DNA of 29,270 nucleotides from a virus: the IMG/VR virus record IMGVR_UViG_3300009161_000167, positions 1-29,270 of that record; one strand, written 5' to 3'. Position 1 is the first letter of the stretch; each line of letters begins with the position of its first letter. Below are positions 1 to 23,178 of the stretch, in pieces. Below the pieces are notes generated by a model. It ran no database searches. It worked only from the letters and a program-made list of their open reading frames with translations, and was not told the DNA's origin. Both the position numbers and the translations under genes were made by a program.

Positions 1-911
1 AATTGATGCGGGTACCAATGCGGTACACCTGCGGACAGGCACGCACGGGCGACACTTTTTTGTTGATGTCCCACGCTCCACGGGAACCACCTGTCACAAA
101 ATGTCTTGGGCATGTGGGCCTGAAGTAGTTCAACCGCCGGTGCCGGAATCAGGACAAATGCAACGCCGATGTACTTTTCCGTCTTGTGCTTTTCGAGCCG
201 ATATATCCAGTGCTCGCGTGACATGTCGCAATCTTGCGGGGTCATGGACAGCAGTTCTTTGGACCGCATCCCCGTCAAACGCTGCACCTGAATCGCGATC
301 TTGACACCGGCGGGAAGGTAGGGCAGGGCTAGTTCATACTGACTATCCGTGACCGGCTCCACGGGCGGATTGTCCACGGCACCCTCCCGCCCAGGTGCGA
401 TCGGCTTGACGGCTGCCAGCCGCTGCCACACGTCCGGCTCCACTAGATTCTCTTCAACCGCCCACTTAAAACACGCGATTATCTGGGTCGCTCGTTTGTT
501 GACTGATCTCCGCACGTGGCCTTTTTTGATCAGGCTCTTCCGGACCGCCTTTAGTTGTACCGGCCCAAACTCGCCAGCGAGCTTACTCCCATATAGATCA
601 GTGAGCGAGTCCACCGCATATCGCAAGTTGACGGCCTCGGTACGACCGTTCTTGTTCTGGCCGTAATAGGTGACGCAATGGGCCAAATACCTGATGCCCA
701 GCTCCATCACCGTTAGCGGCTGTGCAGGCACGACCTCAACGGGCCAGTCACCGGTCGCGTAGATAATTTCGCAGAACTCGTAAAACGCCTGGCGAGATTC
801 CGGCGAGTTGAACGCCCCAGGCAGATACTTATACACAGTGTTGAAATAGATTCTGGCGCGACCAGAACTATGTAACGTGTACTTGGGTATAGGGTTAGGT
901 GGGCGAGACAT
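1..911 (-). CDS. int: Tyrosine recombinase (phage integrase), 3' end cut by window
   Basis: An uninterrupted reading frame of 303 codons runs from ATG at 911 to the window edge. It would catalyse site-specific integration and excision of the phage. Residues about 70-170 look like the core-binding SAM-like domain. The catalytic domain follows, with the box I arginine R216 in TGMRSKEL and the beta-hairpin lysine K243 in HKT. The last readable residues, W-Y-P-H-Q, are where the box II H-x-x-R begins, so H/R, the last His/Trp and the nucleophilic Tyr lie outside the window. The HKT motif and the W-x-P-H-Q ending recall integrases common in planctomycetes (family knowledge). The RBS is weak (GGTGG five bases before ATG). 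It lies downstream of a - strand regulator and the tRNA-like segment. Family assignment is firm; the missing C-terminus cannot be judged. Confidence 0.92.
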   Translation of the reverse strand, partial: MSRPPNPIPKYTLHSSGRARIYFNTVYKYLPGAFNSPESRQAFYEFCEIIYATGDWPVEVVPAQPLTVMELGIRYLAHCVTYYGQNKNGRTEAVNLRYAVDSLTDLYGSKLAGEFGPVQLKAVRKSLIKKGHVRRSVNKRATQIIACFKWAVEENLVEPDVWQRLAAVKPIAPGREGAVDNPPVEPVTDSQYELALPYLPAGVKIAIQVQRLTGMRSKELLSMTPQDCDMSREHWIYRLEKHKTEKYIGVAFVLIPAPAVELLQAHMPKTFCDRWFPWSVGHQQKSVARACLSAGVPHWYPHQ

Positions 912-7419: not shown

Positions 7420-7562
7420 GACTCTCGGTTAGTTGATTCCGAAGTTGTTTATCCGGCACCAGCTGGGCAACCTCACTTGAACTGCGGGGAGTTGGTCAAT
7501 CGGTACTCGCGCCGGTGGCTTCATACACCACCGGCACTCAATCAACATGGAGGTTACAGCAG

Positions 7563-7760
7563 ATGCTAGTCCTAAAATGCAAAATCGGCGAAGAAATCGT
7601 GATTTCAGTCAACGGAATCGAAACCGTCTTGACGGTCACGGAATCGCATCACGGTGCGGTTAAGCTGGGTTTCTCGGCTCCACCGGAGGTGGTGATTGAT
7701 CGGCGGATCGTGTGGGCTAAGAAGATGATGAATGCAGTTGAAACAGGGAAAACATCATGA
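7563..7760 (+). CDS. csrA: CsrA/RsmA-family RNA-binding regulator
   Basis: 65 residues from ATG 7563, fixed by GGAGG at 7549-7553. The pattern is the CsrA one: MLVLKCKIGEEIVI at the start, a variable turn, then VKLGFSAPPEVVIDRRIVW. CsrA dimers bind GGA in RNA hairpins and block or stabilise messages. R47/R48 match the conserved arginine near the end of the core. The usual R6 of the first RNA-binding strand is Cys here and R7 is Lys, so RNA affinity or specificity may differ. It sits directly behind a hairpin-rich leader with exposed GGA motifs and overlaps the AP2 gene by four bases. A phage CsrA could redirect host translation or its own late genes (inference). Confidence 0.85.
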   Translation: MLVLKCKIGEEIVISVNGIETVLTVTESHHGAVKLGFSAPPEVVIDRRIVWAKKMMNAVETGKTS

Positions 7761-10044: not shown

Positions 10045-11301
10045 ATGAAGATCAAGACAGTCGCCATCGGTTCGATATCTCAAGACCCCGCGAACCTGCG
10101 AAAGCACGGCGAAAGGAACATTGATGCGATCGTTGCCAGCCTACGCAAGTTTGGGCAGCAACACCCGATCGTGATCGACTCCACGGGTATCATCCTATCG
10201 GGCAACGGTCGCTACATGGCCGCCGTTAAGCTCGGCTGGAGCGAGATCAAGGTGGTCGAGTCGTCACTCACGGGATCGGCTGCCACCGCTTACGCCATCG
10301 CCGACAACCGGACGGCGGAACTGGCCGAGTGGGACACTACGGCACTGGCTGAGACCTTGCGGGCGTTGCAATCGGAGGAGTTTGATACCAACGCGGCAGG
10401 GTATAGTGATGGCGAGATTGATGCGTTGGTGGAGGGGTTGGGGAGTGAGTTGCTTGGGGCAGATAAAGAGATCGTTGAAGATGAGATTCCGGAGCCACCC
10501 GTTGACCCGATCACCAAGACTGGCGATCTGTGGATTCTTGGTGAACACAGGGTGCTCTGCGGCGATTCGACGAAGGCGGATGATGTGGCACGGCTGATGG
10601 CGGGGGCGAAAGCGGATCTTTGCTTTACTTCCCCACCTTACAACCTGGGCAAGTCTGTTGGACTTCGCAACGGACACCGTAAAGGCATGTCGAGTGCGTA
10701 CAACGATATTGCTGATAATTCGGGCGATTGGCAATCGCTTTTCAGGGATTTTACCGATTTAGCAATATCTCACTCTTTGCTGGTCGCTATAAATGTTCAA
10801 ATGCTTTCTGGAAACAAGGTTGCACTCTGTGAACTTATCGGAGAGTACGCATCACGAATTGTTGATACTGCTGTTTGGGTAAAAACGAACCCGCAACCAG
10901 CCATGGCAGAACAAGTAATGACGAGTGCGTTTGAATTCATAATAATGCTTTCACCAGAACAGGGTCCGACACGGCGAATCTCAACTGGGTCTTTCGGGCG
11001 TGGTCAACTGTCGAATGTCTTTTCGCACGGTACAGCCAGTGGTCATGACTCGTCAATTCATGGTGCAGTCTTTCCGATTGCGGTGGCATGTCATTATGTC
11101 GGCAATTTAACCAAGACTGATAACACCATCTACGATCCCTTCCTCGGCTCCGGCACCACACTAATCGCAGCCCAACAACTCAACCGCAAGTGCTACGGCA
11201 TGGAAATCAGCCCCCAATATTGTGACGTGATCGTGAAACGGTGGGAGAATCTAACGGGCATGGTAGCCGTTCGAGAGACCTCGGTAAAAACACCGGCATA
11301 A
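10045..11301 (+). CDS. ParB-domain / DNA methyltransferase fusion
   Basis: 418 residues. Residues 1-100 are a ParB/Srx-like nuclease-fold domain (ISQDPANLRKH, ILSGNGRYMAA). Residues 160-405 are a beta-class DNA methyltransferase: motif IV TSPPYNL at 195-201, then motif I DPFLGSGTT at 364-372 and CYGMEISPQY. The S-P-P-Y form is usual in N4-cytosine enzymes but also occurs in N6-adenine ones, so the modified base is open. Such fusions are common in phages next to the terminase, and probably shield phage DNA from host nucleases or mark it for packaging. The part between the two motifs is AT-richer (37-47% GC per line at 10741-10980, against 58-67% in sampled upstream lines). GGAG lies seven bases before the ATG. 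Confidence 0.88.
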   Translation: MKIKTVAIGSISQDPANLRKHGERNIDAIVASLRKFGQQHPIVIDSTGIILSGNGRYMAAVKLGWSEIKVVESSLTGSAATAYAIADNRTAELAEWDTTALAETLRALQSEEFDTNAAGYSDGEIDALVEGLGSELLGADKEIVEDEIPEPPVDPITKTGDLWILGEHRVLCGDSTKADDVARLMAGAKADLCFTSPPYNLGKSVGLRNGHRKGMSSAYNDIADNSGDWQSLFRDFTDLAISHSLLVAINVQMLSGNKVALCELIGEYASRIVDTAVWVKTNPQPAMAEQVMTSAFEFIIMLSPEQGPTRRISTGSFGRGQLSNVFSHGTASGHDSSIHGAVFPIAVACHYVGNLTKTDNTIYDPFLGSGTTLIAAQQLNRKCYGMEISPQYCDVIVKRWENLTGMVAVRETSVKTPA

Positions 11302-19245: not shown

Positions 19246-19803
19246 ATGCAATATTGCCAAGTATCGCCCAACGGTCAAATCTCCGGCCCTCAGTGGCTAC
19301 CACAGTCATTCGCCAATGTCAGCAACTTCCACACGTTGGACACTGATATTCTCGCTCAATACGGGTTCTACCCTTACACGCCTTCGGTCAAGCCGACAAT
19401 CAATCCAGCGACAACTCGACTGGATCAAGTGTTACAACTGGTAGGCTCGAAGGTCACCGAGACATGGATTGTGGTTACGCTCACACCCGATGAGCAAATG
19501 GGCTATTTGATCTCACAAAAAGTGATGCTGAAACAACTCTTAGATCAGCACATGGACGCCCAGGTTGCGCCCCGTGACTTCGATTCGATTCTGACCGCAA
19601 TCACATGGTCAGACAGCACCGTGCCGCAGTGGGCATCAGACGGATCCGCAGCCAAGACCTTCCGTGAGCAGTGTTATACCGTTGCATATAAGATCGAAAC
19701 GGACGTTCTGGCAGGACTTCGCAGCGTACCCACGCCAGCCCAATTCACATCTGAAATGCCCGTGTTGTGGGCACCACCTTCAAACGCGAACGGGACATCA
19801 TGA
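19246..19803 (+). CDS. Tail fibre assembly-like protein, 185 aa
   Basis: Preceded by a good AAGGAG. The N-terminal part (LDTDILAQYGFYPYTP) and the C-terminal part (WASDGSAAKTFREQCYTVAY, then VPTPAQFTSEMPVLW) follow the layout of phage fibre-assembly/DUF4376-like proteins, where an aromatic C-terminal domain with a helix and a P-x-x-x-E-x-P-x-x-W ending is usual. Placed directly after the adhesin, it may help its folding or attach to it. No known chaperone is matched with certainty. Confidence 0.6.
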   Translation: MQYCQVSPNGQISGPQWLPQSFANVSNFHTLDTDILAQYGFYPYTPSVKPTINPATTRLDQVLQLVGSKVTETWIVVTLTPDEQMGYLISQKVMLKQLLDQHMDAQVAPRDFDSILTAITWSDSTVPQWASDGSAAKTFREQCYTVAYKIETDVLAGLRSVPTPAQFTSEMPVLWAPPSNANGTS

Positions 19804-20342
19804 AGCGAATACTTGCGATACTGCTGATGAGCCTACCTACCGTGCAGAGTGCCGAAATCATTTTCGACACGCTCGATAAACCGATCACAAATCTCGTTTA
19901 CACGGGGGCGAATCAGTGGATCTGGCAAGAGTTCAATTCAGGTAACGCTGACACGCTTGACAACTACTTCCTGAACGTGTCGATACCCACATTATCCACC
20001 AATGGCTATCTTTACGTCACATTCGTCGACACTCCAAGTCAGACGCCGATATTATCCTGGCTCTCCCAATGGAGGCTTGATTCGATCCCTACAGATCAGG
20101 TGACAACGCTCGGTTTCTCACGGTTCCCAGAGCATTTCCGACTTGACGTGCAGATGATTCCCCACACGAAGTATTTTTTCGGCATGTCTGGGACCGTACC
20201 TGTGGCATGGGCAAACACCGCCGATGGTTTTTCGGCTCGACTGGTCGCCAATTACATCACGCCAGAACCGCAAACGTGGATAACTGCTATCGTTGCCACA
20301 ATTGCAATGACCGCAATAATTATAGCAAAGGTAAAACGATGA
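19800..20342 (+). CDS. Secreted protein with PEP-CTERM-like sorting tail, 180 aa
   Basis: Residues 1-18 (MKRILAILLMSLPTVQSA) look like a signal peptide cut before Glu19. The body is beta-rich and aromatic. The C-terminus is the striking part: P155-E156-P157, then a hydrophobic stretch (about 159-176, WITAIVATIAMTAIIIA) and the basic end KVKR. That tripartite tail is the PEP-CTERM signal recognised by exosortase in several Gram-negative groups, including planctomycetes. The protein may be exported and handled at the lysogen's or infected cell's surface, for example to block a receptor. An alternative is a simple membrane-anchored lysis or exclusion protein. ATGA-type overlaps join it to both neighbours. 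Confidence 0.65.
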   Translation: MKRILAILLMSLPTVQSAEIIFDTLDKPITNLVYTGANQWIWQEFNSGNADTLDNYFLNVSIPTLSTNGYLYVTFVDTPSQTPILSWLSQWRLDSIPTDQVTTLGFSRFPEHFRLDVQMIPHTKYFFGMSGTVPVAWANTADGFSARLVANYITPEPQTWITAIVATIAMTAIIIAKVKR

Positions 20343-20812
20343 TACTCGCCACCCTCGCCACGCTCCTGCTCGCCTTCGCGCCACCATTCGACGCCAAGGT
20401 GGTATCCGTCCACGATGGCGACACGATCACCGTGCGAACGGATGAAACGATCAAGATCCGCATCAACGGAATTGACGCGCCAGAACTGAAACAACCGTTC
20501 GGACAGGCTAGCAAACAAGCCATGTCAGGGTTGGTATTCGGCCAAACCGTCACCATCAAGCCAGATAAAAAAGACCGTTACGGACGGCTTCTGGCACGCG
20601 TTGAAATCGGCAGTAAAGACACCAGTTTGACGATGGTCGAACTAGGCATGGCGCACTGGTATGAGGCTTATGCCAAACACGACACCCAATTGCAATCCGC
20701 TCAGACACAGGCCAAGACAGCCAGACGGGGCCTGTGGTCGGATCCCAAAGTGGTTGCACCTTGGGACTTTCGGAAAGCCGGTAGACCACCAACGAAAGGT
20801 GAAAAAAAGTGA
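20339..20812 (+). CDS. Secreted SNase-like (thermonuclease family) nuclease
   Basis: 157 residues. A short signal peptide (MILATLATLLLAFAPPFDA) is followed by a complete SNase domain: VHDGDTITV, IRINGIDAPELKQPFG with the R, D and E of the active site, and RYGRLLARVEI with the second arginine. It should cut DNA and RNA outside the cytoplasm, with Ca2+ as usual cofactor. Placed between the PEP-CTERM-like gene and holin-like genes, it may destroy entering foreign DNA in the periplasm, recycle host DNA, or thin released DNA at lysis. The last codons overlap the next gene (GTGA). Confidence 0.86.
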   Translation: MILATLATLLLAFAPPFDAKVVSVHDGDTITVRTDETIKIRINGIDAPELKQPFGQASKQAMSGLVFGQTVTIKPDKKDRYGRLLARVEIGSKDTSLTMVELGMAHWYEAYAKHDTQLQSAQTQAKTARRGLWSDPKVVAPWDFRKAGRPPTKGEKK

Positions 20813-21030
20813 TTAAAGATATTTTGGGTCAGGTCAATTACAACCAAGCACGCATGACGATCATACGGGCAGCCGGTGTGGGGCTTATCACGGCACTCGG
20901 AGTGGTATCAACTGATCTGCCAAAAATCATTGATACACTCGCACCGCTGGGACTTGCACTCACTTTTGCAATCGGCCAACTTGCCCATTACCTCGCATCT
21001 GGCGATAAACTCCCACCCTCGCTGAGCTAA
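20809..21030 (+). CDS. Holin-like small membrane protein, 73 aa
   Basis: GTG start at 20809, with AAAGG about ten bases upstream. Two likely membrane helices lie at about 17-35 (TIIRAAGVGLITALGVVS) and 42-64 (DTLAPLGLALTFAIGQLAHY), with short polar ends. This is the layout of class II holins. Its neighbours (secreted nuclease, second membrane protein, peptidase) support a lysis role. Holin families are too diverse to assign one. Confidence 0.6.
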   Translation: MIKDILGQVNYNQARMTIIRAAGVGLITALGVVSTDLPKIIDTLAPLGLALTFAIGQLAHYLASGDKLPPSLS

Positions 21031-21035
21031 CACCA

Positions 21036-21308
21036 ATGCAACCGACTGATATTCCGGCCACCGCTGATTATTCAATTCTCACAATCCCCATCTGGTTTGT
21101 ATATTCCACCTGGACTGTTGCGGATATCGCAATTCAGCCGGAGGAATCAGTTGTGATTGCATTTATCAGATCTATTCCCGCCATGCTGGCAACAGCAGCG
21201 GGGGTCATTCAGGCGATCTACTCGATACGCCTCAAACGCGAAAAAATGGCGATCGAAAAGGAATTGAAACTCAAAGAACTTGAGCGACGCTTCCCCGATC
21301 CAGATTGA
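21036..21308 (+). CDS. Second holin-like membrane protein with charged tail, 90 aa
   Basis: Two hydrophobic segments (about 12-33 and 38-64) are followed by a highly charged helix, RLKREKMAIEKELKLKELER. This fits a holin or antiholin with a cytoplasmic coiled tail. It lies five bases after the preceding membrane gene and is followed by an intrinsic terminator at 21349. The ribosome binding site is weak. Confidence 0.6.
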   Translation: MQPTDIPATADYSILTIPIWFVYSTWTVADIAIQPEESVVIAFIRSIPAMLATAAGVIQAIYSIRLKREKMAIEKELKLKELERRFPDPD

Positions 21309-21636: not shown

Positions 21637-21878
21637 CACCAACCGCATCAACCGAAGACCGGAATAACATGGGCTTCCCGCTCATCCCATTTGCGGTCCT
21701 GTGGCCTCTGATCAGGCTGGTAGCCGTTCCATTAATCCAGTCAGTGTTGCCAGCACTACTCCGCAAGATCGCTGACACGCTCGACTCTGGCGAGCCAGGC
21801 ACTATCTCCGCCGATGAGTTGGGTGAATTGATTGACGGTCAGAAGTCGCAAATGCACGCAGTCTACAAGGGGGAATGA
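21633..21878 (+). CDS. Small membrane protein, 81 aa
   Basis: Start ATG 21633 overlaps the previous stop. A long hydrophobic helix or hairpin (FPLIPFAVLWPLIRLVAVPL plus IQSVLPALL) is followed by an acidic helical tail (TISADELGELIDGQKSQ). Overlaps with both neighbours show it is part of the same transcription unit. Could be a further holin/antiholin-type protein. Confidence 0.58.
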   Translation: MTPTASTEDRNNMGFPLIPFAVLWPLIRLVAVPLIQSVLPALLRKIADTLDSGEPGTISADELGELIDGQKSQMHAVYKGE

Positions 21879-22384
21879 TGCTCAAGTCACTGGCACTACT
21901 ACTGACATTTGCCGTGCCGGTGATGGCAGACACGGGACAGGCGACATCCCTGCCCGCCATGTCAGAGTCGTCATGGATCTTTGTCGATCAAGGCAACACC
22001 TACCTGATCGGCAAACAATCCGGCTCGGTACTGATCCTGCGGTCTGGTGACGAGCCGCGACCACAACCACGACCGATACCGATACCGATCCCTGATGCGA
22101 TCACGGGCGTTAAGTGGTTGAGCGTGATCGTTGACACGGACAACCCCGATCAGGCGGCGTGGCGGACTGATTCCGCCCTTAGAACAGAAGTCGAGCGCAA
22201 GGCGATCAATTACCGCTCGTATCTGACGAGCGAATCGGACGTTGACAGCCTTGGATTTCGTGCGTTATTGCAATCGACCGGCACGCCGTGCGTTATCCTA
22301 CAGGACGCAAACGGCAAACTGGTCAAGACGATTCGGCCTGCCAATCTTGCCGATATCATGGCGATTCTGGAGGCGATCAGATGA
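21875..22384 (+). CDS. Exported protein with Pro-rich linker and thioredoxin-like domain
   Basis: 169 residues. Signal peptide (MLKSLALLLTFAVPVMA) using ATG 21875 or 21878, a short beta part, a Pro/Arg-rich linker (PRPQPRPIPIPIPDAITG), and a C-terminal domain of about 90 residues. That domain ends GTPCVILQDANGKLVKTI and a helix, recalling the cis-Pro strand and last hairpin of thioredoxin. The usual C-x-x-C is absent, so redox activity is doubtful. It directly precedes the papain-type peptidase, overlapping by four bases, so it may be its partner in the envelope. Confidence 0.6.
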   Translation: MMLKSLALLLTFAVPVMADTGQATSLPAMSESSWIFVDQGNTYLIGKQSGSVLILRSGDEPRPQPRPIPIPIPDAITGVKWLSVIVDTDNPDQAAWRTDSALRTEVERKAINYRSYLTSESDVDSLGFRALLQSTGTPCVILQDANGKLVKTIRPANLADIMAILEAIR

Positions 22385-23178
22385 GCCAGCCCGAACTATT
22401 TCCCTGCTTCGGGAACGACTGGCGTGGCATGGGCAACCGTCCACCGTCGATCAGCCTAAAGCTCGGTTCGCAGCCACTTCCCGCCATCCTGCCAAGCGAA
22501 TGGGTGGAATTCGATCTCACCGCATCGCCAAACTTCCCAATAAAGATCAAAGATCAAGGGCAGTTCGGTGCCTGCAACGGACACGCCGCAGCCACATCGC
22601 TGGAAGTGGCTCGCTGGATTGCCGGTCAACCTCATATCGACCTATCACCCTGGTTGATTTATGCCGATCTGTGCCGTGGTTGGGACACCGGGTCAAGCAT
22701 TGCCGAGGCACTCCAACTACTTGAGAAGTCAGGCACTTGCGAGACTTCGCTGGTTCCATTCGGCACAATCAACCCATCGTCAGTCAAGCAACAGGCTCGC
22801 AACGATTGCAAGCGATTCAAAATTGAGATCGGTACGACACTCCTGACTTGGGATGATTTGTGCGTTGCAACGCAGCTGCGACGACCGTTCAATTTCTCGA
22901 TCCCAGTCAACACCGGATTCAATGCACTCGACGCCAACGGTTGCCCATCGAACAGGTCAGGCTCGCACAACCACGCCGTGATGGGCGGGCTAGGGATGCG
23001 AAAGGCCGCTGATGGGCAATGGCTCATCAGGTGGCAGAACAGTTGGGGTACGCGATGGGGTCAAAATGGGCGTGCCTGGCTGTGTGAACGGAACATCGAG
23101 GGCTGGGGTTTTGATGCCTACAGTGTCTCGGCAATTGCAACGATCACGCCTGACACGGCACCTGCTCTTGCATCTTGA
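22381..23178 (+). CDS. Papain-family (C1) cysteine peptidase
   Basis: 265 residues. All four C1 signature residues are in place: oxyanion Q59 (KDQGQFG), nucleophile C65 (FGACNGHAAATS), H198 (GSHNHAVMGGL) and N220 in WQNSWGTRWGQNG. There is no signal peptide and no obvious propeptide beyond about 50 residues, so export would need the holin or virion. Being last in the holin-like cluster, it may act as the endolysin or cut surface protein on entry. Phage lysins of the papain fold normally belong to CHAP or NlpC/P60; a true C1A pattern with N-S-W-G is unusual. Peptidoglycan versus protein as substrate cannot be told from sequence. Confidence 0.85.
   Translation: MSQPELFPCFGNDWRGMGNRPPSISLKLGSQPLPAILPSEWVEFDLTASPNFPIKIKDQGQFGACNGHAAATSLEVARWIAGQPHIDLSPWLIYADLCRGWDTGSSIAEALQLLEKSGTCETSLVPFGTINPSSVKQQARNDCKRFKIEIGTTLLTWDDLCVATQLRRPFNFSIPVNTGFNALDANGCPSNRSGSHNHAVMGGLGMRKAADGQWLIRWQNSWGTRWGQNGRAWLCERNIEGWGFDAYSVSAIATITPDTAPALAS

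Follow-up and report, generated by a model that had tools for sequence, protein, structure and literature searches.

The window analysed here is a whole virus record of 29,270 bases, and it carries a gene (19800..20342, + strand) for a 180-residue, predicted exported protein with a PEP-CTERM-like tail. The reading frame opens with ATG and is shared with homologues, the tripartite tail is conserved, both neighbouring genes overlap the frame, and the gene is tightly linked to one of the tail-fibre region. We give a probability of roughly 45% to the reading that a host exosortase displays this phage protein on the cell envelope, where it would mask or change a surface feature bound by the phage fibres.

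Anatomy of the predicted exported protein

The protein begins with MKRILAILLMSLPTVQSAE and ends with ITPEPQTWITAIVATIAMTAIIIAKVKR. Residues 1-18 (19800..19853) form a signal-peptide-like start, and cleavage, placed by eye, is likely near VQS-AE (VQG-SE in relatives). The body (19854..20255) is a predicted beta-sandwich according to AlphaFold2 and belongs to no recognised family in the searches made. It is followed by the P-E-P codons CCA GAA CCG (residues 155-157; 20262..20270), and then by a hydrophobic helix with a basic K-V-K-R end (20277..20339; AlphaFold2 and hydropathy), so that the protein closes with AKVKR. In a 17-residue scan, hydropathy rose above 1.2 only in segments starting at residues 4-7 and 157-164, and there is no hydrophobic stretch besides the start and the tail. 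The helix near the C-terminus covers residues 157-180, where the PEP-CTERM criterion is about 14 residues. These elements had been named by an earlier sequence-only reading (N-terminal signal peptide, C-terminal P-E-P, hydrophobic helix, K-V-K-R) and are confirmed, with a signal-peptide-like start as judged by eye and hydropathy. The 180 residues include no cysteine, and none occurs near the starts of the homologues; thus there is no N-terminal lipobox of the kind found in Llp/Cor-type proteins and unimolecular spanins.

AlphaFold2 models the whole protein with a pLDDT of 60, and the body taken from a relative with 71. Foldseek searches against the PDB and viral models returned no match with E <=0.001, and the best VIA-align Z scores (6.0 and 6.1, not significant) fall among unrelated beta-sandwiches. 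Scattered non-significant fold matches include carbohydrate-binding modules. By sequence the protein has no match in the PDB, and PHROGs gave no useful family for it. A beta-sandwich of modest confidence with no significant fold match suggests binding and proves nothing.

Conservation of the tail and model scores

Scanning with capsid and portal genes gave the first two relatives, L002 and L015. Their alignment, used as the next query, recovered 13 viral records, and a wider alignment recovered the same 13; including the window, the set comprises 14 viral records and ten distinct proteins. The window protein shares 45-50% identity with the other nine, which are mutually close (body 92-99% identical to L040; whole-gene dN/dS 0.108). 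A dN/dS for the tail by itself is unreliable, infinite dS values having been capped. P-E-P is kept before the C-terminal helix in all ten distinct proteins, as the sequence-only reading had asked of the homologues, and since nine of them are so alike in the body this conservation amounts largely to comparing one lineage with another. In all ten there is also a T two residues after P-E-P, and a hydrophobic stretch leads to an end with one or more basic residues. The stretch after P-E-P varies in sequence and length, and the P-E-P codons vary synonymously (GAA/GAG, CCG/CCT). Some relatives end in VPEPSTW or VPEPSTY tails (VPEPSTWLLG, VPEPSTYLLG), and the basic end ranges from K-V-K-R in the window and AKAKK in L002 to just LIRCVK or LIGRFI in other homologues.

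The tail is more than a chance product. A rule requiring P-E-P within the final 35 residues, a hydrophobic 12-mer shortly after it and a basic residue among the final eight selected 3 of 1138 distinct six-frame ORFs of at least 80 aa (window plus loci L001-L035), and all three belong to the target family. Among shuffled tails, 14 of 227,600 (6e-5) satisfied the same rule.

Scores against PEP-CTERM models are uneven. The window protein had no PEP-CTERM match in Pfam, NCBIfam or with TIGR02595, and its helix gave a weak match to the unrelated TIGR00941 (E 0.026). Pfam PF07589 matches eight of the ten distinct homologues (best E 0.014), and RepD-like_N also weakly matches eight of the ten (E 0.036). 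In NCBIfam the ten homologues matched eight families, seven of which are PEP-CTERM types; six homologues matched TIGR02595 (best E 0.092). In hmmscan no member of the target family passes the curated TIGR02595 cut-off of 16 bits, relatives reaching 13.6 (best) and 8.7 bits. A profile search of genomes with the same model gave 17.5-17.6 bits, over the cut-off, in 5 of 21 records and 13.8 bits in five more; among control genomes, 12 of 14 gave a match and 2 of 14 passed the cut-off. Judged by cut-off the family is not a PEP-CTERM member; judged by anatomy it is PEP-CTERM-like. The PEP-CTERM assignment made from the sequence therefore stands in part: P-E-P is conserved and homologues match the models, PF07589 included, but the window protein is unscored and no member exceeds the TIGR02595 cut-off in hmmscan. 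We consider it probable that the tail is functional.

Gene neighbourhood and link to the fibre cassette

Upstream on the same strand, we identified an Mtd_N domain protein (PF18454; 17459..18310), a probable fibre component, and a glycine-rich protein (PF21722; 18310..19236), a probable fibre tip by position. They are followed by a gene (19246..19803, +) whose stop overlaps the target start by 4 bases; it has no family match, so its role in the fibre rests on position. The target stop in turn overlaps by 4 bases the start (20339) of a gene for an SNase-family nuclease (20339..20812, +; Pfam) with a signal-peptide-like start. Next come two small membrane-type genes (20809-21030 and 21036-21308, +), holin-like in size and position and with no family match, and then, within a lysis-type run, a papain-family protease (22381-23178, +; PF00112, phrog_16701), after which lies the major capsid gene. 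The target thus sits in a tail-fibre and lysis-type run. No peptidoglycan hydrolase is among the 21 Pfam families matched by the 43 window proteins, so the papain-family protease may be the lytic enzyme. An unknown 169-aa protein (21875-22384, +) has a signal-peptide-like start, as does the SNase, and several neighbours of the target may therefore be exported. Elsewhere, the window encodes a CsrA-type regulator (7557-7760, +; PF02599, E 2.3e-10 with the window proteins pooled, assigned to this ORF by sequence) and a ParB-like domain apparently fused to a DNA methylase (10045-11301, +; PF02195 and PF01555; fusion inferred from ORF length and sequence).

The target is tightly linked to the fibre-region gene directly upstream, the fibre role of that gene being assigned by position. 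Used as a query, the upstream gene picked out 56 viral loci. At the 13 where it is 82-91% identical the target is present in 13/13, and at the 43 where it is 41-49% identical the target occurs in 0 of 42 testable loci (L145 has 211 bases downstream only); the fibre-cassette records are related to each other, so these counts are not independent. The 13 close loci are the same contigs as in the target scan, which is why no close upstream copy without the target is seen. In most of the 43 distant-copy loci another small membrane-type gene comes next instead of the target. Three different head modules precede the target and its cassette; their portals share 99%, 31% and 25-27% identity with the portal of the window. 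The flanking SNase is unevenly conserved (53-88% where found), and loci L003, L008 and L023 have an SNase 86% similar, a different fibre gene and no target.

The window diverges far more in the target than in the upstream gene. Compared with L002, L036, L040 and L047 in blocks of 20 codons, it has nucleotide identities of 0.62-1.00 for the upstream gene and 0.44-0.67 for the target, and at the SNase start they are 0.75-0.91 (window against L002), a pattern that looks like allele exchange. At the fibre-tip position the window has a glycine-rich gene, and 8 of the 9 other records compared there share another C-terminal end (ends compared, not aligned). Strict co-variation of the target allele with the fibre tip gene was considered and dropped; L046 has a third fibre end and the common target allele.

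Life style and host

A partial tyrosine integrase gene (3..305, - strand) runs off the contig edge, with a PF00589 score of 24.4 bits (cut-off 27.1; E 2.2e-5). PF00589 exceeds its cut-off in 10 of 21 phage records, including the target-bearing G005, G008 and G013; the window aside, the remaining records with the target have no PF00589 match, but these records are fragments. Direct repeats of 84 and 127 bases stand at the ends of two relatives without the target, which are 34.8-36.3 kb long. The sequence-only reading had proposed surface change or superinfection exclusion in lysogens. The integrases are compatible with such a life style, but the target lies in the tail and lysis gene run and not in a lysogeny region; since it overlaps the fibre-region gene and the SNase gene, with the holin-like genes beyond, expression from a lysogeny region is unsupported.

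No exosortase was detected in the 21 phage records, and no tRNA in the window. Host searches of genome contigs by target alignment and by portal alignment confirmed no relative, a weak absence because just two peptide patterns were used per scan. In phages and plasmids, the matches to the portal and the protease are remote (<=26-29% identity among the matches listed) and point to no host.

PEP-CTERM proteins on other viral contigs

The pattern VPEPxTW located 47 stretches in viral contigs, and 42 of them (all except L070, L079, L090, L095 and L115) have PEP-CTERM-looking tails by eye; four of the 42 come from the target family and two from one contig. Among 37 records drawn from 37 pattern loci, a portal occurs in 4 and a phrog_2 terminase in 15 (16 of 39 counting the window), 17 in all, and the remaining records may be host flanks or misclassified contigs. 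In a TIGR02595 scan of nine proteins, six outside the target family and three inside, five did not pass. Four of the six outside passed (L098 at 20.4, L100 at 25.1, L106 at 24.3 and L114 at 21.6 bits); L096 (15.0 bits) and L108 fell below the cut-off. The L098 and L100 records carry a phrog_2 terminase, L096 adjoins terminase and portal genes, the terminase match of L106 is weak, and L114 has none. A candidate portal at L106:2941-4680 was rejected, PHROGs having given no family. PEP-CTERM proteins thus appear to recur on contigs of unrelated phages, some of which may hold host flanks.

One PEP-CTERM protein (ATLQIEVFDNG...), by eye unrelated to the target, recurs on L074, L077, L078, L081, L084, L093, L100, L105, L106, L114 and L116. 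At L096, a gene (2214-2771, +) about 1 kb before the terminase and portal genes encodes a protein that by eye resembles a C-type lectin and ends in a VPEPSTW tail.

Discussion

The anatomy of the target predicts that it is exported, that its last helix stops in the inner membrane and that P-E-P then lies at the outer face, where exosortases are thought to act (PMC1569441). The Sec pathway of the host would export the protein and the last helix would hold it in the inner membrane, until a putative host exosortase recognises P-E-P and transfers the protein to the outer surface or to the polysaccharide of that surface; keeping polysaccharide attached to the cell is the supposed role of PEP-CTERM proteins (PMC12188702). 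There the beta-sandwich body would most likely cover or alter a surface feature bound by the phage's own fibres, and infected cells and debris would then take up no related phages or new progeny. The linkage of the target to a fibre gene suggests that it acts on whatever surface the fibre recognises, and by way of this cassette superinfection exclusion is plausible, with T5 Llp as the precedent (PMC9586334). Exclusion proteins are described as made early in the same paper; the target gene has a late look, and the late expression that we envisage would better suit the protection of progeny from debris.

The helix could also be an anchor only, with the target a plain membrane-anchored periplasmic protein whose P-E-P is incidental and on which no exosortase acts. 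The lack of a PEP-CTERM score for the window protein, with relatives below cut-offs in hmmscan, is what this reading would lead one to expect. It accounts poorly for a P-E-P retained in all ten distinct homologues beside a drifting helix, for the rarity of such tails after shuffling and for the VPEPSTWLLG and VPEPSTYLLG tails of relatives, and we regard it as unlikely. Display by exosortase could instead serve release or a change of the matrix, the target being a late surface protein that binds polysaccharide and, acting with the exported nuclease and the papain-type protease, loosens cells or biofilm to allow spread. The overlap with the SNase gene, the nearby holin-like genes, the protease in the same run and the carbohydrate-binding modules among the non-significant beta-sandwich matches all agree with such a role. 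We nevertheless think it quite improbable, because the link is to the fibre-region gene and not to lysis genes, as the three target-less loci with a similar SNase illustrate, and none of the fold matches reaches significance (best Z 6.1).

Unimolecular spanins have a C-terminal membrane helix, a beta-rich periplasmic body and an N-terminal lipid-anchor cysteine that defines the class. The target resembles them in its helix and beta-rich body, and its late position near holin-like genes would suit a lysis protein anchored in the outer membrane by its N-terminus and in the inner membrane by its C-terminal helix. Neither the window protein nor the starts of its homologues have the lipid-anchor cysteine, however, and the target is linked to a fibre gene, which makes a spanin very improbable.

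Our preferred explanation remains that the target is displayed by a host exosortase and acts on the surface recognised by the fibres. More broadly, and only tentatively, phages of exosortase bacteria may place their own proteins on the envelope through the host PEP-CTERM route, which would give exclusion or surface-change proteins a third mode of anchorage, next to lipoproteins and integral membrane proteins, would have arisen in several unrelated phage lineages and would here take the form of a swappable allele within a tail-fibre cassette. In the titles and abstract starts of the literature on this and neighbouring themes, we found no description of a phage-encoded PEP-CTERM protein. If the idea holds, viruses exploit a bacterial sorting system that is itself poorly understood in its mechanism, and the target is a small, testable exosortase substrate. 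Fibre-linked alleles would then point directly at the phage's binding partner on the cell, and there would be a rule by which to look for exclusion proteins in phages whose hosts make protein-polysaccharide envelopes.

Haft 2006 outlines PEP-CTERM proteins by a signal peptide and, at the C-terminus, P-E-P, a hydrophobic helix and a basic end (PMC1569441). Like the exosortase (EpsH) substrates described there, the target combines a signal-peptide-like start, a body without known homology, P-E-P, a helix and a basic end. Unlike bacterial substrates it is encoded by a phage, its family scores below the curated models or not at all, and the basic cluster is weak in relatives. The Llp protein of phage T5 is described as a small exported superinfection exclusion lipoprotein that is encoded adjacent to and downstream of the receptor-binding gene and blocks the receptor, and other exclusion lipoproteins are also placed by the receptor-binding locus (PMC9586334). 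The target shares with these Llp/Cor-type lipoproteins a small predicted exported phage product encoded beside receptor-binding genes, the fibre role being assigned here by position. It differs from them in having no lipobox, in a late-looking gene run and in its anchor, which, if there is one, would be the candidate C-terminal sorting tail.
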